From NCBI GenBank assembly GCA_012837155.1, contig CP051546.1:801347-865346 (forward strand): a DNA stretch of 64,000 nucleotides, written 5' to 3'. This stretch comes from Flavobacterium sp. GTDB taxonomy: Bacteria; Bacteroidota; Bacteroidia; Flavobacteriales; Flavobacteriaceae. The notes beneath the pieces were generated by a model. That model was not told the DNA's origin. It did not search any database and saw nothing but the letters and a program-made list of their open reading frames with translations. How positions within the stretch are numbered: position 1 is the first letter of the stretch; every line of letters starts with the position of its first letter. Below, piece by piece: positions 1 to 45,669 of this stretch. The position numbers and the translations under genes are program-made.

Positions 1-609
1 ATTGTTTTCGGGCTAACCAATTGGGTTTGCGATTTTATCCTTAAACACGGGGCCTTTTCCCAGTTTTCATTGTGCCTTTGTGCCCTCGGCTTCTGCGATA
101 TAGGTTCATACAGGGTGTTTACTTCCTTTTCTTTATTGTGATTTCGGTTTTTACCGCTTTCGGTTTCGGCTTTGTTTGTCTAAATCTGATTAAATAATTG
201 GCACTCTTTTTTATTGTTTCAAGCATTTCGTTTTTTCTTTCAATAAAATGACACAATTCCCTTTCGTATTTTAATTTCTAAAGGTTTCGATTACAATGGC
301 AATATTATAGCCCAGACAATTCGCGGACTTGCTTGTAGCAATTCACTTCTGAATTGTCTCTTTTTCGAATAGTAGAAACAATAAAACGATCTAAATTAAA
401 AATAAGCAATCCCCAAACCAGACCCAATCCCATGGCAATATATGGATTGTCAAAACACAGTAAAAAGAGCAAACTGGCGATAAAAGCCATAATTGCGGTA
501 AAAAAGACGGTAGCACCAATACCTACATACTTGGTTTGTTCGCCTTCGGAACAACCTTCGAGTAGGTTTTTATCTGCTCCAGAACAAAGGAGAAAAAATG
601 CTTTAGCAT
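1..609 (-). CDS. DUF4407 membrane protein, frameshifted, 3' end outside window
   Basis: The reverse strand reads a DUF4407-like N-terminus. It starts MLKHFF at 609, then SGADKNLLEGCSEGEQ, a first membrane segment, and a second hydrophobic stretch ending in FNLDRFIVSTIRK, the family signature. Near position 60 the text AEAEGTKG, followed by KGPVFKDK in a shifted frame, matches the later soluble part of the family. At least three frame changes are needed, one in the T run just after the start codon. Members are membrane proteins of unknown function common in Bacteroidota. Whether this copy is truly decayed or only poorly sequenced cannot be told from here; the coding sense is clear. Confidence 0.6.
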
Positions 610-762
610 AACGATTGATTTTGATTGATTTTGATTGAATATGATGATGTTGATTAGTATGCAGTAAACGTCAAAAGTTACGAATTGGTATAAATTTTCG
701 CCTTATTCTGTATAAAAAAGCTGTTCATTACAAACACTTCTCTTAATTTGAATTAATAATAG

Positions 763-2348
763 TTATATTAGTGGTGCTCCTTCCATAATTTCGGCATTGG
801 CAAATGCTGAAAATTTTCAAAATTAGCTTTAAATTTTTGAGCTAATTCAACCGCTTTATGTCGTATAAATTAGGGTCTGCCCAAGTATTTCTTGGATTCA
901 ATATTTCACTTGGAACATTCGGACAAGATTGTGGTTTTGCAAGCCCAAAAACAAATGATCTACATAGTCTACGTTGTCTAACTCGCCGTTTAATGCTGCG
1001 GTTATCATGGCGCGGGTGTATTTTAATTTCATGCGGCTGCCCGTTCCATAAGGGCCTCCTGTCCAACCCGTATTGATGAGCCAAACTTTTACATTGGCAT
1101 CTTTCATTTTTTGCTTAGCATTTCGGCATATTTTGTTGGATGCAATGGCATAAATGGCGCTCCAAAACAAGCGGAGAAATTAGGTTGAGGTTCTGTGACT
1201 CCAGCTTCTGTCCCAGCAACTTTTGCGGTATAACCAGAAATAAAATGATAGGCTGCTTGACCAGGAGTTAATCTAGAAATTGGGGGCAAAATGCCAAAAG
1301 AATCGGCGGTTAAGAAAAATATGTTTTTTGGGTTTTTTCCAATAGAATCTTTTTGAATATTATTTATATGGTAAATAGGGTAGCTTACACGGGTATTTGG
1401 AGTTATTGATATGTCTTGAAAGTCAACTTCGTTGGTTCCTTTTGAAAACAATTTTCTAAAATAGCTCCTTTTTTTGGCTCTAAATATGTCAGGTTCGTTT
1501 TCGTCAGTTAAATTGACCACTTTTGCATAGCAACCCCCTTCGAAATTGAATACGGTATTTTCGTTCGTCCAACCGTGTTCGTCATCTCCAATAGTTTTCG
1601 AGCAGGGTCGGCAGATAAAGTTGTTTTTCCTGTTCCAGACAATCCAAAGAAAATGGCAGTATCGCCATTCTCTCCTACATTGGCACTACAATGCATGGGT
1701 AAGGTATTTTTGAAAACAGGTAAAATAAAGTTTAACGCTGAAAATATTCCTTTTTCATTTCGCCTGTATAGCCCGTTCCGCCTATCAATGCGATTTTTTT
1801 TGTAAAGTCTAAAATGGCAAAATTACTTTGGCGCGTTCCATCTACTGCTGGATCGGCCATAAAACTTGGCACACAAAGCAAGGTCCATTCAGGAGTAAAA
1901 TTTTCTAATTCTTCCTTTTCGGGGCGTAAAAACATATTGTAACAAAATAAATTTGCCCAAGCAGTCTCGGTAACGACACGTACATTAAGCCTGTAATTAG
2001 AATCTGCACATACATAAGAGTCTCTTACAAAAATTTCTTTTCCAGATAAATAGTGGGTAACTTTACGGTACAATTTTTCAAAAGCTTCTGGGGCAAAGGG
2101 ATGTTGATATTTCCCCACCAAACTTATCTTCGTAATCTTATCTTTTACAATGAATCGGTCTTGAGGCGACCGACCTGTAAATTTACCTGTATTAATGGCT
2201 AACGCTCCTGTTGCACTTTCTGCTCCTTGACCAGATTGCAAAGTTATTTCGTGTAATTCCTCGGCGGATAATTGATAACGAATAGTTGTATTTTCGATTC
2301 CCAAATTTTTAACGAAATCGATTTCGTAAGCAAAGCGTAATTGTCCAT
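763..2348 (-). CDS. pckA: Phosphoenolpyruvate carboxykinase (ATP), frameshifted
   Basis: ATP-dependent PEP carboxykinase converts oxaloacetate and ATP to PEP, CO2 and ADP, the entry step of gluconeogenesis in the cytoplasm. The pieces in order give [20 protein letters not shown] and RSPQDRF (N-terminal domain), the P-loop [24 protein letters not shown], and a C-terminus [22 protein letters not shown] ... [14 protein letters not shown]. The best start is the ATG at 2348 ([14 protein letters not shown], then NLGIEN after one missing A). An upstream TTG is open but less family-like. About 529 codons match the usual 530-540. At least six single-base frame breaks are spread along it, several in short runs. 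A central metabolic gene with so many breaks and intact motifs points to sequencing indels rather than decay. Confidence 0.85.
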
Positions 2349-2424
2349 AAATTTGTGGTTGTATGTTTAATTTTTGGCGCAAAAGTAGAAATTATAATTC
2401 AGATAGAAATTTTTTATTCGATTT

Positions 2425-2805
2425 TTATGATTTTTTCTTTAAAATATTTAGGAGTAAACCGCCCCAAGCTAGGATTAATAGGAGTCCGCCCACAGGAGTT
2501 ATAAAACCAATTATTTTAAAATCGAAGGGAGTAAGATTATTTTGCTAGTAAATAAATAGAACCCGAAAAGAATAAAACACCAAAAACGACCAAATATAGA
2601 TTGTTTTTTTTGCTTTTGAGAAAGCTCATGGGTGCTTCCTATAAACACTAAAAATAAGGCATGGTACATTTGGTATTTTACCCCAGTTTCAAAAGTAGAA
2701 AGCGCATCGATAGTTAAAACTTTTTTAAGGCATGCGCTCCAAATGCACCTAAAATGATGGCTAGCATTCCGAAAATTGCCCCAGTAGAAATTATTTTTTT
2801 TCCAT
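2425..2805 (-). CDS. DUF423 small membrane protein, frameshifted
   Basis: Joining three frames gives about 126 residues: MEKKIISTGAIFGMLAIILG then AFGAHALKK, TFETGVKYQMYHALFLVFIG, and a C-terminus TPFDFKIIGFITPVGGLLLI then LAWGGLL. The AFGAHALK and F..GV.YQMYHA motifs and the P.GG....GW-like end are typical of the DUF423 (YwdK-like) family of four-helix inner-membrane proteins, whose function is unknown. I place the start at the ATG at 2805, before the first hydrophobic segment. One break lies in the K-coding A run after HALK and another near 2545. It lies 77 bp upstream of pckA on the same strand and divergent from the saccharopine-dehydrogenase-like gene. Confidence 0.65.
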
Positions 2806-2913
2806 TTTTCTATTTTAAAGTGCAAAAATATCTATTATCGTTAGATAGCAGGTATTTTTGTCAAACTTTTTGTTTGACTCAAGGTATAAGTTTTGTCTTT
2901 AATCAAGGGATAT

Positions 2914-2946
2914 TTGTTATAAATAAAACAAATGTACATATATTTG
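2914..2946 (+). promoter_or_regulatory. Flavobacterial-type promoter of the saccharopine dehydrogenase-like gene
   Basis: TTG at 2914-2916 is separated by 22 bp from TATATTTG at 2939-2946, fitting the Bacteroidota primary sigma pattern TTG-N(17-23)-TAnnTTTG. The predicted start codon at 2964 lies 17 bp downstream. Confidence 0.5.
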
Positions 2947-2963
2947 TTTATATTTACGTAATT

Positions 2964-4336
2964 ATGAGAACAGTTTTAATTATTGGAGCAGGAAGATCTG
3001 CTTCCTCTTTGATTCAATATTTATTAAACAAATCTGTTGAAGAAGATTTGCATCTTATTATTGGAGATTTATCCTTAGCATCTGCACAATGTAAAACGAA
3101 TAATCATCCTAATGCAACAGCAATTTCATTGGATGTTTTTGATGAAAATCAGAGAAAAGAGGCTATTCAAAAGGCGGATATTGTTATTTCGATGTTGCCG
3201 GCACATTTGCATAATGAGGTGGCAAAGGATTGTATTGTCTATAAAAAAACATTTGGTTACGGCTTCTTATGTGAGTGATGCCATGCAGGAATTGGATGCT
3301 TTGGTCAAAGAAAATAATTTGATTTTCATGAATGAAATTGGTCTTGATCCAGGTATTGACCACATGAGTGCGATGAAAGTGATTGATGAGATTAGGGCTA
3401 AAGGAGGGGAAATGCTTCTTTTTGAATCTTTTTGTGGAGGATTGGTTGCGCCTGAATCGGATACGAATTTGTGGAATTATAAATTTACTTGGGCACCAAG
3501 AAATGTGGTTCTCGCCGGTCAAGGAGGCGCCGCAAAATTTTATTCAGGAAGGCACTTATAAATATATCCCGTATTGGAATTTATTTCGTAGAACCGAATT
3601 TCTTGAAGTAGAAGGCTACGGCAGATTTGAAGCCTATTCGAATAGAGATTCACTAAAATATCTTGATATTTATGGCTTAGAAAATATACTTACTCTATAC
3701 AGAGGAACCATTCGCAGAGTGGGGTTTCTCGAAAGCTTGGAATGTATTTGTGCAACTCGGAATGACTGATGATAGCTATATTATGGAAGGCTCGGAAAAC
3801 ATGAGTTACAGACAATTCGTAAATTCTTTTCTGCCGTATCATCCAACGGATTCTGTTGAAAGTAAGATGCGTTTGATTTTGAAAATTGATCAAGATGATA
3901 TTATGTGGGATAAACTTTTGGAGCTAGATTTATTCAATTCTAAGAAAAAAGTAGGTTTAAAAAATGCAACACCAGCTCAAATTCTCGAAAAAATTCTTGG
4001 AGACAGTTGGACGCTTCAGCCCAATGACAAGACATGATTGTCATGTATCACAAATTTGGCTATGAATTGGACGGCAAAAAACAGCAAATCGATTCCAAAA
4101 TGGTCTGTATCGGCGAAAATCAGACGTATACTGCTATGGCAAAAACGGTTGGTTTGCCATTAGCGATGGCGGCATTATTAATTTTGAACGGAAAGATAAA
4201 AACTCCTGGTGTTCAGCTTCCTATCCGAGAAGAAGTGTATTTACCTATTTTGAAAGAATTGGAAGAATACGGTGTTGTTTTCAACGAACAAACGGTGCCT
4301 TATTTGGGATACAACGGTCAGAAAACAGCTAGTTAA
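2964..4336 (+). CDS. Saccharopine dehydrogenase family protein, frameshifted
   Basis: The N-terminus MRTVLIIGAGRSASSLIQYL is a Rossmann nucleotide-binding motif (GxGxxxS). It is followed by DIVISMLPAHLHNEVAKDCI, NEIGLDPGIDHMSAMKVID and ESFCGGLVAPESDTNLWNYK, typical of saccharopine dehydrogenase / LYS9-like proteins. The C-terminus runs through MAKTVGLPLAMAALLILNGK to NGQKTAS. In Bacteroidota this family is annotated as NAD(P)-dependent saccharopine (or related) dehydrogenase in lysine metabolism; the substrate is not settled by sequence alone. Four frame changes (near 3250, 3525, 3725 and 4030) are needed for about 457 codons. Each break leaves the protein text continuous, which suggests indel errors. 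Confidence 0.75.
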
Positions 4337-4352
4337 TTTTTAGTTTTTTTGT

Positions 4353-4384
4353 AATCCGCTTCCTGAGAAGCGGATTTCTTTTTA
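4353..4384 (+). terminator. Rho-independent terminator
   Basis: AATCCGCTT and AAGCGGATT form a 9-bp stem with a 6-base loop followed by TCTTTTT. It lies 16 bp after the stop of the saccharopine dehydrogenase-like gene. Confidence 0.8.
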
Positions 4385-4389
4385 TTAAC

Positions 4390-4427
4390 TTATAGGACTG
4401 ATTGAATCGATATAGGTAGGCTGTATT
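4390..4427 (-). pseudogene. Detached 3' end of the M56-TonB sensor gene
   Basis: Read on the reverse strand from the target duplication at 4419-4427, this stub continues the frame of the gene broken at 6867. QYS is followed by LPISIQSVL and a stop at 4390-4392. Without the ISAs1 element the ancestral protein ends ...KPVRTQYSLPISIQSVL. In the interrupted gene the last residues are replaced by IS-encoded PGQTH. The stub therefore fixes both the insertion point and the original stop codon. Confidence 0.85.
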
Positions 4428-5039
4428 CAGGTCAAACGCATTAAAAACCATTAAATTTTAAAATGATTTTTTTAATATAACCATCTGAAATACAACGAAT
4501 TAAATTTGTTTTAGCAAATTAAATTTGTATATTTATCTGATAATCAGATGCTTAATATGAAATTAAAAAACAAATTGTTTATATTTGCTCAAACTATTCC
4601 AGACTTTAGATTGAACAGAAAAAAATTACAACCCTTCGGAAAATATTGTTTTCATAACCATACTTGCCGTCATATGCGGGGCAGAAACTTGGGAAGAAAT
4701 TGAAGATTACGGCATTGTTAAGCGTGAGTTTTTGGAAACTATCTTAGATTTAGAAAACGGGATTCCTTCTCACGACACGTTTAATCGTTTTTTCTCTTGC
4801 TAAAACCCTCTTTTTTCGAAGAACATTCGTGTCTTGGATTAAATCAATATCTAACCATTACAAGGGTGTCGTGGGCAATTGACGGCAAAACAGTTCGAGG
4901 TTCTAAGCAATCTGGATTGAAGTCTGCCATTCATTTGGTAAGTGCTTTTTTCTACAGAAAACGAAATCTTTTAGGTCAAATTAAAACAGAAGAGAAATCA
5001 AATGAAATTACGGCAATCCCAGAACTTTTAAAAGTGTTA

Positions 5040-6220
5040 TACCATTGATTTTATAAAATAGTCCAAAAACACTCGAAACATTTTTTTATTCACATTGGAC
5101 TAAAATATAAAAATCGTATATTTGGCTTAAGAAAGAAAATATATGTCGTCACCAAAAATATTTACAATAAAGGAGAGCTTGTCGGAGCTCAAAAAAATTC
5201 AAAAAAAGAGCAACCCCATGATTGCAAAGAGAGTACATGCTTTACTTGTTTTTAAAGAAAATGAACTGAATGGAATTTCTAAAAGAGAGGGTTGCTCAAG
5301 CCATAGGGGTTAATCATAATAGTATTCAGTCGTGGCGCGACCTCTATATTAATGGAGGGATTGAACTACTGACAAGACATTCTAAAAAGGATACAAGCCC
5401 AGTGTTATAACTTTGGAAGAAGAGCAAGCTTTAAGAGAACAGATGTTTAATCCTGAAAACGGGTTTGTTGGATACGTCGAACTGTTAGCTTGGTTTGATG
5501 AAAAGTTTGGGAAACAAACTAATTACAGCACTTTCAAAGGGTACGTTTATAGAAAATTCAAGGCAAAAAATAAAGACCGCAAGAAAAATTCATGTTAAGA
5601 AAGACCAAATTAAGGTTGAGGATTTAAAAAAATTTCAGTAAAGAATGTGAAAACATCTACAACGAAAAAGGATGGGGATTTAAAACAATAAACTTGTATT
5701 GTCAAGATGAAAGTCGGTTCGGGATGTTTACTAGAAACGGAAAGCCTTAACGGCAAAAGGAATTAAGCCGATATGTGTCTTTCAACAAGTATTCAAAGCC
5801 ACATGGTTATTTGGTGCTTATTCACCATTTACAGGAGATCATTTTGAATTGGAATTACCCCATTGCAATTCAAATAATTTTCAACTATTCCTAAATGAAT
5901 TTTCAAAAGAGAGACCTGATGAATTTAAAATATAATCTTAGATAATGGTGCATTTCACAAATCAAAGACCCTTACCATTCCAAATAACATAGCGTTACTT
6001 TTTATCCCACCATATTCACCAGAACTCAATCCCTCAGAAAAAATATGGTGGCGAATGAAAAGGGCTTTTACTGGAAAACTGCACAAATCACTAGAAGAGG
6101 TAAGTTCTTTCATAGAGAATGAGGTGAAAAAACTAACTAATGAAATTGTCAAGAAAACCTGTGAATTTGAATATATCGTTTCATCTCCTTTTTGGACTAA
6201 ACTGTATTAGTCAATGGTAT
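5040..6220. mobile_element. IS630-family insertion sequence nested in the ISAs1 element
   Basis: The left end begins TACCATTGATTTTATAAAAT and the right end, reverse-complemented, ATACCATTGACTAATACAGT; both continue to an AGTCC box about 26 bp in. The element is flanked by TA at 5038-5039 and 6221-6222, the invariable IS630/Tc1 target. One base of the left end is ambiguous. The 1181-bp length is typical. Confidence 0.85.
5143..6210 (+). pseudogene. IS630-family transposase, frameshifted
   Basis: It starts MSSPKIFTIKESLSELKKIQ and has a helix-turn-helix part (VAQAIGVNHNSIQSWRDLYI after one frame correction) and a winged-helix region (ITLEEEQALREQMFNPENGF-like). The DDE catalytic core is visible: YCQDESRFGMFT (Asp 1), ILDNGAFHKSK (Asp 2) and PYSPELNPSEKIWWRMKRAF (Glu). 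The gene ends at 6208-6210. About six single-base shifts interrupt roughly 355 codons, the first being an extra G in a GGG run near 5290. All three catalytic positions survive. Activity cannot be judged because the rest of the window also carries many indels. Confidence 0.85.
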
Positions 6221-6866
6221 TAGACCTTGAAAATGCTATTATTACCATAGATGCAATGGGTTGTCAAACAGATATAGCAGAAGTGATTATTGAACAAAAG
6301 GCAGATTATATTTTGGCGGTAAAAGAAAACCAAAAAGAATTATATCAAGATATTGAAAGTGCTTTTTTGATTCCCTCAAAAGACAAATCAAAAATTTATA
6401 TAACCGAGGAAGTTGGTAGCGGAAGGGTAGAAAAAAGGACTTGTACTGTGATGGATGATTTGAGTCATTTATTAAATCCAACTAAATGGAATTCATTACA
6501 ATCTATTGCAAAAATAGAAAGTGAAAAGGTTTATAAAATCAACTGGTAAAACACAGAAATCAACTCGGTTTTATATAACAAGTTTACCTTGTGATGCCAA
6601 GAAAATAGCGGATGCTGTTCGTTCACATTGGAAAATTGAAAACAATTTACATTGGCATTTAGACGTTTCCTTTGGAGAAGATAAGAGTAGAAAAAAGACA
6701 TAAAAAAGCGGCACAAAATTTTTCGTCAGTCTTGAAATTATCATTAAAAATACTGCTCAATGAAACAATTAGTCCTGTAAAGAAGAGCGTCAGAAGAAAA
6801 CGTAAATAGCAGGTTGGGATAATCATTATCTTTTATCTTTGTTCAACTTTTAATGCGTTTGACCTG

Positions 6867-7968
6867 GGCTGTATTGTGTTCGAACAGGTTTTTCATTTAC
6901 TTTTCCTGGAGTCCATTTAGGGGATAATTTTAATACACGAATTGTTTCTTCTGCAGTCCCATGACCAATATATTTTAGGGTTTTTATATCAGTAAGTCTT
7001 CCGTCTTTTTCTATTATAAAGGTTGCATATACTTTTCCTTTTAAATTAGGTTGTGTTGGAGTTTTATAATTTTCGCCAATAAATGTGTAAAATTTTTCCA
7101 TACCTCCTGGGAATTCAGGTTTTTCGGTTAATTCTGTTACATTATATATTTCTTTTTCTTGGATGTTTATTGCTTTTGTTTCAACTGGTTGAGACTTGTC
7201 TTTTTTACCATCAGAAACAGTCATTACCAATTCTTTACTACCAAATTTTTGATGTGAGTTTTTTAAATTATCATCAAAATATTTCTTTGTATAAAATTGA
7301 TATTGAAATGGTTGTGGAAATTTTTGCTTCTGGCATTTTTATAAACGGAACTTCCTGCAAAATAGACAAAATCTGAAGCAGAGTATTTGACTAATTCTGA
7401 ATTAGGATGATTTTTGCCATCAATCCAAATAGCGTATTTAGACGAATTTTTAAAATCATTAAATTCATTTGGGTTGGAGATTTTGAATAATAGGTTCTGG
7501 CACATAATTCAAATATCTGTTTTTTACTTCTAAAGTAAGTTCTTCATATTGCTTATCGATAGTTAAATTTCTTATGCAATCTTTTATTTTTATACGAACC
7601 CCTGCGTAATATTCGTCCCTTCTGTCTTTTGTTGGGGGTACATTTTTTATTATTTGTTTGTTAGCTATTAGGCTATTTTCTTGAGCAACAGTTTTGAAGC
7701 ATAAAAAATACGCTATCCCCAAAATAAAAGGAATTATAATCCCTTTTTTTAATAATGCTCGTAAGGGTGATGTGTTTCTTGTCATCATAATTAATCGTTT
7801 TTTAGTTAATGAATAATCCAAATTACTGGCCAAGTAATGGGTTTGGTTCTGGTTTGCCTTTGCTAATAACAAATTTTGGTAAAACGGAACGTTGTTATAA
7901 GAGTTCACGACTTGCTCATCGGCGAGGAATTCGTGATTGAGTTGAATTGCTTTTTTATAAAAAAAGAA
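6867..7968 (-). pseudogene. Middle part of M56-TonB sensor gene, between two insertion sequences
   Basis: From 7968 the reverse strand reads YKKAIQLNHEFLADEQV, the distal zinc-ligand motif of M56 peptidases. A conserved KKRLIMMTRNTS segment and a membrane segment (IIPFILGIAYFLCFKTVAQ) follow. A periplasmic region ends in ELTEKPEFPGGMEKFYTFIG and AEETIRVLKLSPKWTPGK, a TonB C-terminal-like domain. Two frame changes (near 7490 and 7255) occur inside it. The upstream part is at 8935-9512 and the last codons at 4390-4427. Removing the insertions leaves about 1.7 kb (about 569 codons), the usual size of Flavobacterium M56-TonB proteins. Such proteins are thought to sense envelope signals and control a partner BlaI repressor. 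Confidence 0.85.
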
Positions 7969-8934
7969 TAGGTATAAGCGTTTAGTTCGCACTTGTTAAG
8001 TGCTTATTTTATTGATATTTATTTACAATTCACCATCTTTCTTATTAACACATCGAATATTGTATCCATATTTGACCTTCTGTTGTATCTAAAATGGTAT
8101 TCATCAAGATAATTTTGCATACGGTCTTTACTGCAATGGTGATGAATTCCTCGGAGCCATCCTTTTATATTCATTATGTGTATATGTAGCTCTTTAAAGT
8201 TCTTTCCATCTTCTGATGCAACTTGTTTCAAATTTTTAAACTCCTTTTTTAAAGGTGTGTAACCTTTCCATTTATCCGAAACTACTTCCGCTTCGCTTGA
8301 AACATATTTGGTTAAGAAAGCACCTAATTCTATTGCCGAAGAATGTTCAATAGCCTCAGCGTAAGCTCGACCAACACCATCTTCTAAAATTTCAACAGCC
8401 AAGACAATTAATTTTTTCAACCCTTTACTCCTTCCTTTTTTACCTTCTTCTGGACCTCCAATCACAAACTCATCAACGTGAATAACCCCTGTTAATGGGC
8501 TTTTTAGACTGCTCTTCATTACTTGCTGTAGTTTTTGTTTGAATGCCCAGCAGGTCATTTGTCGAAGTTCAAATTCATTACTTAATTCTAAAGAAGACAT
8601 CCCTTTTTTCTTCGTACTTATTTTGAAAACAATATGAAAGGCTATTAGTATTGAAAATTTAAGCTTTTCAAACATAGTTCCTGCTGTTGGACTTTCATCA
8701 TATCGGCACTTGGTACAACGTCGGTTATGGATGTTTTTTTCCTTTCCCCAAATTTATCATTATTACATCGTTTACAATTATAGCCACTAAGCCATTTTAT
8801 CTCAGATAAATATTCTAAACAATCCTTATCTTCTTTAAATCTTTGGTTAAATTTTATTGAATTCACTCCTCTGAAAATATTGCGCTCTGTCATTTGACAA
8901 AGATAATTTATTTGCGACCTAACGCTTATACCTA
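7969..8934. mobile_element. IS1595-family insertion sequence
   Basis: The inverted repeats begin TAGGTATAAGCGTT at both ends and extend, with two or three differences, to a GCGA/TCGC-type box over about 22 bp. The 966-bp element is flanked by the 8-bp direct repeat AAAAAGAA (7961-7968 and 8935-8942). This length and 8-bp duplication fit IS1595. It splits the M56-TonB gene between FWFNPIFFF and YKKAIQLNHE. Confidence 0.9.
8019..8893 (-). CDS. IS1595-family (ISXO2-like) transposase, one frameshift
   Basis: An N-terminal zinc-ribbon region reads YNCKRCNNDKFG and, after one frame change near 8720, RRCTKCRYDESPTAGTMF. Then come HVDEFVIGGPEEGKKGRSKG (first catalytic acid), EAEVVSDKWKGYTPL (second) and HIMNIKGWLRGIHHHCSKDR with YHFRYNRR near the end, the ISXO2-like transposase signature. 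About 290 codons is normal for the family. It is transcribed in the same direction as the interrupted host gene. Confidence 0.88.
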
Positions 8935-9512
8935 AAAAAGAAAATAGGATTAAACCAAAAGACTGTTTTTAAGACTTCGATGAATAAAACGTCTAAACTG
9001 TGTTTTTGGGTAACATGTGTTAATTCGTGAGAGAATAATTCGGTCTCTATTTTTTTATGGTTATAATCGATTTCATTGATGAAAATGTAGTTTAGAAAAG
9101 TGTGTGGAAGCACTTCTTCTTTCAATAAAACCAATGTTGCATTTTTATACTTAACTTTTGTATTCACATTTATTTTAGAGATTATTTTTAAAATATTTCT
9201 TACAAATCGGAAGAAAAGCAAGAACGTAATCGATCCGTAAATACTCCAAAGGACGAGAGGTAAATAATTGGTTTCTTGAACAATAACAACGCTTTCTTGA
9301 CTGAATTGAATGGTATTATTTTGTAAAATAGGTGTTGTTCTTATTTTCTCAATGATTTCGATGGTTATAAATGGAACTACAAGCGAAAAAACAAGACTAA
9401 ACAGCAAGTAAAACCTGTTAAATTGATGTATTTTTTCTTTTTCCAATAACAGAAAATACACAAGTATAAGCGTTACTAATGGAATTGTCGATTTGATTAG
9501 GAAGTCTATCAT
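8935..9512 (-). pseudogene. 5' part of M56 (BlaR1-like) metalloprotease gene with TonB-type C-terminus, interrupted
   Basis: This is the N-terminal part of the second M56 sensor. Hydrophobic segments follow MIDFLIKSTIPLVTLILVYF, the zinc-binding motif is HELTH (in ELFSHELTHVTQKHS), and the part ends FWFNPIFFF where the IS1595 element enters. M56 proteins are integral-membrane metalloproteases. In the BlaR1/MecR1 paradigm they cleave or trigger removal of a BlaI repressor. The N-terminus closely resembles that of the neighbouring M56-amidase gene (both start MIDFLIKSTI), so the two are tandem paralogues. The start codon overlaps the stop of a short in-frame remnant resembling the BlaI C-terminus. 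Confidence 0.88.
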
Positions 9513-9592: not shown

Positions 9593-10559
9593 TTACATTT
9601 TTATGAATTCAAAGATTTTATTTGCAATTTCATTCTGTCCATTTTCAGTTACCAGATAAGTTCTGTCATTTTCGTTTGATAAGAAACCAACTTCCACTAA
9701 TAATGCAGGGCATTTTGAGTGTTTGAGCACATAAAACGGGCCGTCTTTAACTTCTCTTTTAGCAAGTTTTTCGTTAGAGATTTTATCAATTATGTTTTTA
9801 GCACTTTCCTTTGATTGTTCATAAAATGCATTTTCTTTTGAAACATAAGCATGGACACCGTTTTCATTTGTGTTTTTCGAAACGTCTACATGTAAAGAAA
9901 TTACCAAACTTGGGTTAATTTTGTTTATTCTCGATACCCTTTCGCTTAATTCAATAAAACTATCATCTTCACGAAGTAAAATGATTTCGAATTCGCCTTT
10001 ACCGTTCAGTAATTTTATTTTATTAGCTATATTTTCTACAATTTTCTTTTCTTGATTGGCACCGATTTGCGCTCCAGAATCTATTCCTCCGTGAGCTGCA
10101 TCGATTACGATTATTTTTTTGTCAAGTAAAAGTTGTGAATCGTCTTTACCGTTCAATGAACTTATTTGATTTGCAATACTTTCTGGAATATTAATTTCTT
10201 GGTCTTCCACTTTTTGTACTTCAGAATTTTTTCTCCTTGTTCTGCATTAATTAGCGTTGTTTTTTCGGCTTGTAAAGTTGTGATTTTGATTCTTTCGATG
10301 AATAAAGCTGGGCGCATAATGTTGTAGTAAGCCCAATAAACACCGCAAGAAGTGCCAACTTCATTAGTGTAGCTTTTGATTTTGAGGTGTTTTTTGTCAT
10401 CATGATAAGTCGTTTTTTGATTGCTAAAAAATTAAAATTACTAGTTAATATAAAAGGTTGGGAGGAACCTATTTTGTTGAGTAAAAGATTCTGATAAAAT
10501 GAAATATCGCGATGTGTAGCTAGTACATTTTCATCGGCTAAAAATTCATGATTAAGCTG
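9593..10559 (-). pseudogene. 3' part of M56 sensor gene, fused to an N-acetylmuramoyl-L-alanine amidase domain
   Basis: From 10559 the strand reads QLNHEFLADENVLATHRDIS, KKRLIMMTKNTS and a membrane segment (MKLALLAVFIGLTTTLCAQL). After two single-base shifts near 10270 and 10225 it continues into an Amidase_3 domain. This has KKIIVIDAAHGGIDSGA (zinc His), KKIVENIANKI (zinc Glu), LVISLHVDVS (zinc His) and CPALLVEVGFLSNENDR (catalytic Glu). Cell-wall amidases of this family cut the bond between N-acetylmuramate and L-alanine. Here the domain takes the place of the TonB-like tail of the paralogue, on the presumed periplasmic side. The fusion depends on correcting the two A-run indels; otherwise the amidase would be a separate downstream gene starting near 10210. 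Confidence 0.75.
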
Positions 10560-10613
10560 GAGGGTACTGAAAAACATCACTTATTTTGATCAACGTTCTT
10601 TTTTAGATATTAA

Positions 10614-10660
10614 AAAACCGCTTATAACAGGATTTTAAGCATCCGTTATAAGCGGTTTTA
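10614..10660. terminator. Hairpin downstream of the IS1182 transposase
   Basis: AAAACCGCTTATAAC pairs with GTTATAAGCGGTTTT across a 16-base loop. The stem lies between the transposase 3' end and the left terminal repeat, as expected for an element-borne terminator. Confidence 0.6.
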
Positions 10661-10751
10661 TTTTTGTAACTGTTTTTTATTGTTGATTGTATGTGTCTGT
10701 TTTTGACTTATACAGGTTCATTTGGTAAAATGCACGTGTAGATTACATTTT

Positions 10752-12200
10752 CTACATTAATTTGAGTATTCTTTTTAAGTTGACTGTAAAAATTGCTATT
10801 GCACCTTGCATTTGCATATTGGTAATACCGTATGATATTGCTCTATCATAACCGTGTATATTTTTTAACTCGCTATTTTTAGCTTCTATCTTGTATCGAT
10901 GTTTTGCTTTTTCTTTGTAATATTCTGTTTCTTGAAAAGCCATTTGGTCTTGATGCAATTCTGATTTTATGGATACCGAATACGTTTTTGTCTTGGCTCC
11001 ATCTTTATAACAACCTTCCTTTAAAGGGCAATGCTTGCATTTTTCGACATCAAAATAGTAAGTATCTACTTGATTTACCCCGACATCTTTAGTGCCTTGG
11101 CGCGCTTTTCGTATTGCTAAATGCCCTGCTGGGCAAACAAACCTATCGGCATCTTTATTGTAATCAAATTTATCTTCATCTTTCCTAAAGCCTTGGGTTA
11201 TAGATGGATTTAGACGCGCTACTATTTTTATGTTTTGTTCAGTTGTAATTTTAAGATTCTCTTTTCCAGAATAAGCTCCGTCGCCAATAATGGTATCTAC
11301 ATCAACTCCGTTTTCTTGACTGATTTCTAAAAGTTTAGGTAATTCTGGTCCATCGCCTTTTTCTCCAGATGTAACTACAGCCGCGGTAATGATGCGCTCT
11401 TCGGTCATAGCCAAATGAGTTTTGTAGCCAAAAAAGGAACTCTCGGCAGATTATGACCTATTTTTGCATCGGTATCTTTGGATAGGGTTAAATTTTCTTG
11501 AGTGTCTTCTACGGTTTCTTTTAGCAGATTTAATTTTTCCTTCACAGCGGGTATTGAACTTATAGACGGGCTCATTTTCTATGCGTTTTTCTAACTCTTT
11601 GCAATAAGCCAGCTCCTTTTCTAAATCATTGTCGGTATTTTTTTTGGGCATACGTTCTTTGAATTGGTCGTCAAAGGTGTATACTGTTTTTCGAAGTAAC
11701 TTGGAGCGTTCTCTCAATACATCGATGGCTAAAAACGGATTAGATCTTGATAAAGTATGTGTGGCATCAACAATAATAGACTTAGAACGGATGATGCCTT
11801 TTTCAATAGCTATGGTTACCGTTTTGTTTATCAATAGATTTAACAAGTCGGTGTCTTTCAAACGTAGTTTTCTGAATTTGGTCAACGAACTCGGATTAAT
11901 AACATCGTCTTCTGGATTCATATCCAAAAAATATTTAAAGGACATATCGTAACGCGAACGTTCCACTACATCAACATCGGAAACGGTGTAAATTGTTTTA
12001 AGAAGCAAATACTTGAACATACGAACGGGACTTTCTGCCATACGTCCATTATTGGTGCAGTATTTATTTAACAACTCATCGTAGATAAATGAAAAGTCTA
12101 TCAAATCGTTAATTTTTCTCAAAAGATTATTCCTTGGAATAATTAAATCATATAAAGAGGAATGCTCGCTGAACTGTATTGTTTGTTGCTGTACTAACAT
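10752..12200 (-). CDS. IS1182-family transposase, frameshifted
   Basis: The N-terminal DUF772-type domain reads IDFSFIYDELLNKYCTNNGR, AESPVRMFKYLLLKTIYTVS and DPEDDVINPSSLTKFRK-like text. The catalytic core follows: SIIVDATHT (Asp 1), DTIIGDGAYSGKENL (Asp 2), a Cys-rich insert KCKHCPLKEGCYKDG and IEAKNSELKNIHGYDRA (Glu). Two or more frame changes lie between 11415 and 11560. Total length is about 482 codons, normal for IS1182. It is oriented with the host gene. Confidence 0.88.
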
Positions 12201-12312
12201 GTAAAAAACCTTATAATTACAGCTAAATATACCAAAAAAGGAGTAGAAATCCTAAGCTTTCTACTCCTTTTATTTATCAATTTATTCGAAAAAAGACTTT
12301 TTCAGTACCCTC

Positions 12313-12940
12313 TTAAGCTGAATGGCTTTTTTGTATAAAATAAAAATAGGGTTGAACCAAAATAGTGTTTTCAAGATTTCTACAAAAATTACATCGAGTG
12401 TATGTTTTGTTTTACATGAGCGATTTCATGTGTAAATAATTCTTGTTCGATTTGTCTATTTTCATAATCGTTCTGATTGATATAGATAGAATTCCAAAAC
12501 GTGTAAGGCAAAGTCTCTTCTGTGAGTAAAACTAGTCTTGCATCTTTTTGTATGATAACTTTAGCTCCCTTTGCTTTAGATGTAATTTTGTAAATGTTTC
12601 GAATAAACCGAAAGCTTAAAGCTAGAGTGATTACAATATAAATGAGCCATACTAAGGGCAGCAAATAATTAGTTTCTTCAATAGCAGTTATATTTACCAC
12701 TTCGGTTTGAACTGGTAGATTTTCTGCAGTAATAGTTTGTTGTGGGATTACGTTATTATATAGAACAGGAATATCCTGATGAATTTTAAAAGAGGCAAAC
12801 GGAACTGCTAATGAGAAGAGCAAACTCACTAATAGAAAGTACCTATTGAAATGGAACATCTTTTCTTTTTCTAATATCAAATGATAAAAGAGTAAAAGAA
12901 CCAATAGGCTGATGGTTGATTTGATTAGGAAGTCTATCAT
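12313..12940 (-). pseudogene. 5' part of M56 (BlaR1-like) metalloprotease gene, interrupted by IS1182
   Basis: It starts MIDFLIKSTISLLVLLLFYH, with several membrane helices, and carries the HExxH zinc motif in ELFTHEIAHVKQ. After one frame change near 12400 it continues KHTLDVIFVEILKTLFWFNP to KKAIQL, where the IS1182 element begins. The start overlaps the stop of the BlaI-type gene by 4 bp (ATGA), so the two are translationally coupled, as in bla/mec-type operons. Together with 9593-10559 it forms a roughly 1.59-kb gene. As sequenced, the insertion separates the metalloprotease core from its third zinc-ligand region, so the product should be inactive. Confidence 0.88.
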
Positions 12941-13307
12941 TTTTGCTTTTTTTGAAGTTCGCCATCGATGATTTTCTTGAGTTCTTCCAGTTCCGAAGTG
13001 GAGAGATTGGTTTCTTTAGTAAAAAAGGAAGCAAATTGCGATGCCGAATTATTGAAAAAATTCGAAATTAATCCGTTGACATGTTTCGAGAAATAATCCG
13101 TTTTTTTGACCAATGGATAATACTCTCTTGAATTTCCAAATTCGTTATAAGCCACGAATTTTTTATCAATCATTCTTTTAATAAAGTGGCAACAGTTGTT
13201 GTTGCGGGTTTTGGCTCAGGATAGGCTTCAAGCAAGTCTTTCATAAAGGCTTTTTCGAGTTGCCAAAGGTGTTCCATCAATTGTTCTTCAGAATTTGACA
13301 AAGACAT
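12937..13307 (-). CDS. BlaI/MecI/CopY-family transcriptional repressor, one frameshift
   Basis: The full protein is MSLSNSEEQLMEHLWQLEKA ... EPKPATTTVATLLKRMIDKK ... ELEELKKIIDGELQKKQK, about 123 residues. That is the length of BlaI/MecI repressors: a winged-helix DNA-binding N-terminus with the TTVATLLKRM recognition helix and a C-terminal dimerisation helix. The first 44 codons are out of frame with the rest because of one missing A near 13176. Members repress their own operon and are released when a partner M56 protease is activated. A perfect palindrome of the expected operator type lies 23 bp upstream (13330-13347), supporting autoregulation. Both M56 partners are broken by insertions, so derepression by cleavage may no longer be possible. 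Confidence 0.85.
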
Positions 13308-45496: not shown

Positions 45497-45669
45497 AATA
45501 TTCTATAATTTACTTCATCTGTTTGGTCTTTGATGACCTCGTGCGTGCAAAGATAGGTTATTATTGGTTAACAGTACTTTGATTTTTAGCCCTGATTGTA
45601 GTGAAAATCCTTTTTTGAGGGTTTTCTGAAAAAAAAGATTGTAGCGAAAAGCAGGAAACTCCTAAAAAA

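Follow-up and report, generated by a model that had tools for sequence, protein, structure and literature searches.

Nested insertion sequences in a BlaI-M56-M56 sensor cassette of Flavobacterium at an unclosed scaffold gap

The window analysed here is a stretch of 64,000 nucleotides from an insertion sequence (IS)-rich Flavobacterium sp. (assembly GCA_012837155.1, contig CP051546.1; genome positions 801347-865346, G000:C1), whose genome of 3,096,288 bp comprises one contig at 86.21% completeness. Near its start lies a gene for a BlaR1-like M56-TonB sensor in three pieces, separated by an IS1595-family element and by an ISAs1-family element that itself contains an IS630-type element. We put a probability of roughly 0.92 on the reading that elements resident in this genome were inserted into a BlaI-M56-M56 cassette, ISAs1 before the IS630-type element, and that the window stands at an unclosed scaffold gap. 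In the course of events proposed, the sensor cassette would have been struck by common resident elements: ISAs1 would have inserted into the final codons of the M56-TonB gene, the IS630-type element the ISAs1 copy already residing there, IS1595 the same gene at about residue 195, and an IS1182-family element the sister M56 gene at a nearly homologous place. The insertions themselves are evident from the sequence; an order is given for ISAs1 and the IS630-type element only, and none relative to IS1595 and IS1182. Coordinates are collected in Table 1.

The pieces of the M56-TonB gene were compared one by one with an intact orthologue of 581 aa (L098), the gene itself not being rebuilt. Window positions 9512-8922 correspond to residues 1 to about 195 and positions 7971-6868 to residues 190-572, and positions 4390-4419 translate as LPISIQSVL followed by a stop, the orthologue ending in VPITIQSKI; the joins fall at about residue 195 and at 572/573. 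The gene had been named M56-TonB in a preliminary description of this DNA, and the name is upheld by this tiling and by the presence of Pfam M56 and TonB_C above their cut-offs in one chain of L098 (41.1 and 31.5 bits) and of L136 (35.5 and 29.1 bits). TonB_C lies slightly below its cut-off in L137 (23 against 24.6), and in the window pieces TonB_C is above its cut-off (31.7 bits) and M56 below (22.7 against 31). Within seven of 22 loci, a motif-limited search recovered ten open M56 frames, one of which is truncated at a contig edge. In all ten the break falls at one common place near residue 195, in their own numbering, and the end of the C-terminal piece (6868-6877) is reached by eight; no reading frame of at least 300 aa was found in locus L100. 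Among the M56 relatives in named genomes, 13 of 14 loci belong to Flavobacterium and the remaining one to an Arachidicoccus metagenome-assembled genome.

Both cuts in the gene described earlier are real, but they are unequal. The ISAs1 insertion swaps only the last 9 residues, after which the frame terminates in PGQTH. IS1595, by contrast, cuts severely at about residue 195, some way past the HELTHV metalloprotease motif of the N-terminal piece, and should destroy the protein, so that sensor function has presumably been lost. Frame breaks at about 7.2-7.5 kb, in low-quality sequence, had gone unmentioned in the preliminary description.

The three families originally proposed were all borne out by NCBIfam models on cleaner copies from elsewhere in the genome. 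An intact ISAs1 copy (L124) matches NF033564 (E 4.5e-115) and an intact IS1595 copy (L004) matches NF033547 (E 8e-45). In an IS630-type copy (L035), PF13358 (DDE_3) is found at E 3.6e-22, and its second frame matches NF033545 at E 1.1e-30 (107 bits, the cut-off being 100), the first frame reaching 56 bits. The direct repeats reported for the two outer elements, GGCTGTATT of 9 bp and AAAAAGAA of 8 bp, are both exact, and since repeats of the same lengths flank most other ISAs1 and IS1595 copies, they are not due to chance.

Uninterrupted ISAs1 copies occupy at least 12 places in the genome (40 of 140 candidates scored), nine of which carry exact 9-bp repeats; of the other three, one (L125) shows a repeat of 10 bp on inspection by eye, and two (L130 and L134) show no repeat. 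Target duplications of ISAs1 are usually about 8-10 bp. The window copy resembles its family in transposase model, inverted ends and 9-bp duplication and differs in being split by another element. The two copies without target repeats of their own are neighbours (genome 2437.6-2439.5 and 2431.9-2433.7 kb for L130 and L134, respectively), and inspection by eye shows a likeness between the left flank of one and that of the other in reverse complement, possibly the trace of a rearrangement between them.

IS1595 was found at 99-100% identity in at least 27 places, and a 78% relative in at least 16 more (40 of 147 candidates scored, making these counts lower bounds). Exact 8-bp repeats flank 22 of the 27 near-identical places; four of the five misses are members of two composite copies with mutually matching outer ends, the fifth being L029. 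With its NF033547 transposase and 8-bp duplication, the window copy shows no notable difference from its family, for whose IS1016 group duplications of 8 bp are given in an excerpt of PMC10045372. Paired IS1595 copies 62 bp apart were seen at genome positions 186590-188580 (L011/L014), 1308809-1310798 (L005/L023) and 389183-391170 (L026/L027). Each copy of the first pair has its own 8-bp repeat, whereas the other two pairs share the same spacer and match at their outer ends only (TAAGTTTG and TACTTTAA), which suggests that the pair was mobilised twice in the form of a small composite transposon.

That the IS630-type element sits within the ISAs1 transposase (5040-6219 within 4428-6866) stands as first described. 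The accompanying statement that the order of events was fixed by nesting was too strong, although an ISAs1 insertion that came first is supported both by the nesting and by the absence of the nested element at that point in all 12 other ISAs1 copies. The order is not strictly fixed because a compound nested beforehand could have moved in: an ISAs1 copy already carrying the IS630-type element might have entered the M56 gene as a unit through the transposase of another ISAs1 copy. Open ISAs1 transposase frames of 373 aa in five of the 12 other copies would make such mobilisation in trans possible. Given that the compound was found at no other site and that none of the 12 other copies holds the nested element there, we regard this course as very unlikely, and the prior arrival of ISAs1 as the probable one.

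The preliminary description had placed the IS630 element at a TA site, and this did not hold. At least 26 full or nearly full rows of the element were recovered from the genome, including a second reading of the window locus, besides partial rows (40 of 75 candidates scored). Matching 3-bp flanks of the form TNA border all 26 full rows (L033-L058, of which L033 and L058 are one locus), namely TTA in 13, TAA in 12 and TCA in one, and in every row the longest flanking repeat is 3 bp. The empty site is preserved in the 12 uninterrupted ISAs1 copies, each of which carries TTA just once where the nested copy is inserted in the window. Taken together, the flanks and the empty sites identify the duplication as TTA rather than TA.

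The same pattern extends to two congeneric genomes whose transposases are 55-56% identical, TNA being present at 17 of 18 fetched copies. In G036 it borders all nine fetched copies (12 matches), and in G135 eight of nine (11 matches); at one of these eight the repeat extends to 7 bp, and the flanks of the remaining copy differ from each other. Relatives of this transposase are rare (five of 121 genomes of the genus and six of 346 of the order, the present genome counted in both), so that only the present genome, G036 and G135 offered several copies for a test of the TNA rule. Eight other loci were inspected for element ends: TTA was recognised by eye at either side of L198, TAA and TTA occur at L196, and no convincing ends were seen in the remaining six.

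In other respects the nested element resembles IS630 (IS630-Tc1-mariner), with DDE_3, NF033545, a length of about 1.18 kb and two overlapping reading frames. The second frame lies at -1 relative to the first in the four copies looked at, and a first frame of 182 aa is common to 16 of 27 copies, an arrangement that, by analogy with IS biology as generally understood, suggests programmed frameshifting. Excerpts of the literature give 2-bp TA duplications for the IS630-Tc1-mariner group generally (PMC10045372) and 2 bp for a Thermus IS630 member (PMC6352166); those of PMC7471000 say nothing on the length of the IS630 duplication. The titles and opening lines of abstracts searched contained no report of a 3-bp duplication for IS630, a search that lay outside ISfinder and makes no claim of absence. 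Duplications of 3 bp are ascribed to ISAzo13/Zator (PMC10045372, in excerpt), which the window element resembles in this respect; its transposase matches IS630, and no ISAzo13 model was listed for it at E 0.01. Having TNA in place of TA, the element is here called 'IS630-type' and not a plain IS630 member. That it belongs to a subgroup of IS630-type elements, found here in a few genomes from its own genus and order, with a transposase that duplicates TNA and not TA, is put forward tentatively, at somewhat less than even odds. A further IS630-type copy lies in three separated pieces at genome 3083174-3086883, suggesting insertions inside it.

The surroundings of the locus, at a scaffold gap that was missing from the preliminary description, bear on how the nest is to be counted. 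The base directly before the window is the last of exactly 1000 N, and a stretch of 8.3 kb was assembled on both sides of this gap. BLAST gave 98.2% identity for the pair (8377 columns, 11 mismatches, 126 gap openings), and a global MAFFT alignment 65 mismatches and 103 indel events, of which 81 are single-base and 62 lie in homopolymers of three or more. The repeat stops 3 bases ahead of the N run and resumes 6 bases past it, and the nested IS630-type element has identical flanks in both assembled copies. From these comparisons, the repeat is most simply explained by two contig ends of a single locus that were left unmerged. The apparent second nest would then be the same locus, the broken reading frames near the window start would be explained, and the small frame breaks in the M56-TonB gene would not be trustworthy. 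One of the broken frames near the window start resembles pckA by eye. Indel noise of a milder kind occurs elsewhere too, with 14 substitutions and 41 indel columns separating the 27 IS1595 copies from their majority sequence.

Several points weigh against reading the repeat as unmerged ends of one locus, or limit what the overlap can vouch for. Through the overlap, both the nest and the left junction of IS1595 are read twice, but the right junction of this element is read in one contig only, and the left IS1595 repeat is, by eye, one A short in the other contig end. The N run could in principle also be a masked stretch, though the repeat edges lie almost against it. A true tandem duplication broken at the repeat would moreover resemble unmerged contig ends. 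Two genuine 8.3-kb copies, each with its own ISAs1/IS630 nest, would account for the two copies in the assembly, yet they would have to stop only a few bases from the N edges and bear identical flanks around the nested elements, and the differences between them are mainly short indels, largely in homopolymers, as noisy contig ends would give; such a duplication is considered unlikely. Noisy sequence at contig ends might equally raise the suspicion that the interruptions are assembly chimeras joining repeats. Matching target duplications of 9, 8 and 3 bp, and pieces that tile an orthologue, would not be expected of chimeras, and the nest and the left IS1595 junction appear in both contig ends, which leaves this explanation scarcely credible.

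Table 1. Features of the interrupted sensor cassette and its surroundings (window coordinates unless stated).
Feature	Position	Strand	Remarks
M56-TonB (BlaR1-like) gene	4390-9512	-	pieces 8943-9512, 6876-7960 and 4390-4418 (target duplications counted with the elements)
ISAs1-family element	4428-6866	+ (transposase +)	split by nested IS630-type element; 19/19 terminal inverted repeat
ISAs1 target duplication GGCTGTATT, left	4419-4427		exact
ISAs1 target duplication GGCTGTATT, right	6867-6875		exact
IS630-type element (DDE_3), ends TACCATTGA...TCAATGGTA	5040-6219	+	inside ISAs1 transposase; own transposase frames broken in this reading
IS630-type target duplication TTA, left	5037-5039		3 bp
IS630-type target duplication TTA, right	6220-6222		3 bp
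IS1595-family element, 966 bp	7969-8934	- (transposase -)	frame broken in this reading
IS1595 target duplication AAAAAGAA, left	7961-7968		exact
IS1595 target duplication AAAAAGAA, right	8935-8942		exact
Twice-assembled stretch	7-8298; genome 792022-800343, upstream of the 1000-N gap		BLAST and MAFFT
Sister M56 gene (upstream), M56 part, interrupted	10251-12940	-	intact relatives align in tblastn at about 12940-12315 and again from 10580 towards lower positions
IS1182-family element in sister M56 gene	10560-12312	-	flanked by TTAAGCTG at 10552-10559 and 12313-12320
Amidase_3 domain after sister M56 part	9596-10210	-	PF01520, E 3.2e-44; may be a fusion
BlaI/MecI-type repressor, C-terminal part	12937-13173	-	PF03965, E 9.7e-13; fragment ahead of sister M56 gene

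The neighbouring M56 gene, likewise interrupted, had also escaped the preliminary description. NF033551 is the best model on both frame-broken pieces of the IS1182 element within it (174 and 153 bits, each below the whole-protein cut-off of 270), and the element is flanked by 8-bp direct repeats. Across the genome, the 8-bp flanks of IS1182 are identical at a fixed offset in 13 of 16 tested places, with three off. An inverted-repeat-replacing mode is reported for IS1272 (PMC5678879) and is not shown for the sister-gene element; at the 16 places, IS1182 displayed no preference for inverted-repeat sites, the mean best stem being 4.75 against 4.746 for shuffled pairings and reached by 993 of 2000 shuffles. 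The IS1182 and IS1595 sites lie no more than about five residues apart in homologous positions of the two tandem paralogues. Nests occur elsewhere in the genome as well: the IS630-type element splits IS1182 copies at 1196130-1197315 and 2479081-2480266, and ISAs1 does so at 649537-650792.

In Flavobacterium tiangeerense (L137), the cassette of BlaI, M56 and M56-TonB is open throughout, and a beta-lactamase-like gene lies near it (L137 8331-9218; PF13354, E 2.4e-35). The M56 domain, the adjacent BlaI-type gene and this nearby beta-lactamase-like gene recall BlaR1-type sensors with BlaI. Such sensors end in a penicillin-binding sensor domain, in the place of which the M56-TonB gene has a TonB_C end. 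Farther along the window, a Flavo-1 RNA was detected at 45584-45662 (71.8 bits).

The nest is a clear but ordinary case of insertion-sequence decay, of which the TNA rule is the sole unusual part. For assembly, the lesson is that an apparent duplication of such a nest was best read as two unmerged contig ends. Should the TNA rule be true, an enzyme that is IS630-like in other respects would have an altered strand-transfer spacing, and the rule, if not already in ISfinder, would offer a naturally occurring variant with which to ask how the 2-bp target spacing of the IS630-Tc1-mariner superfamily is determined.

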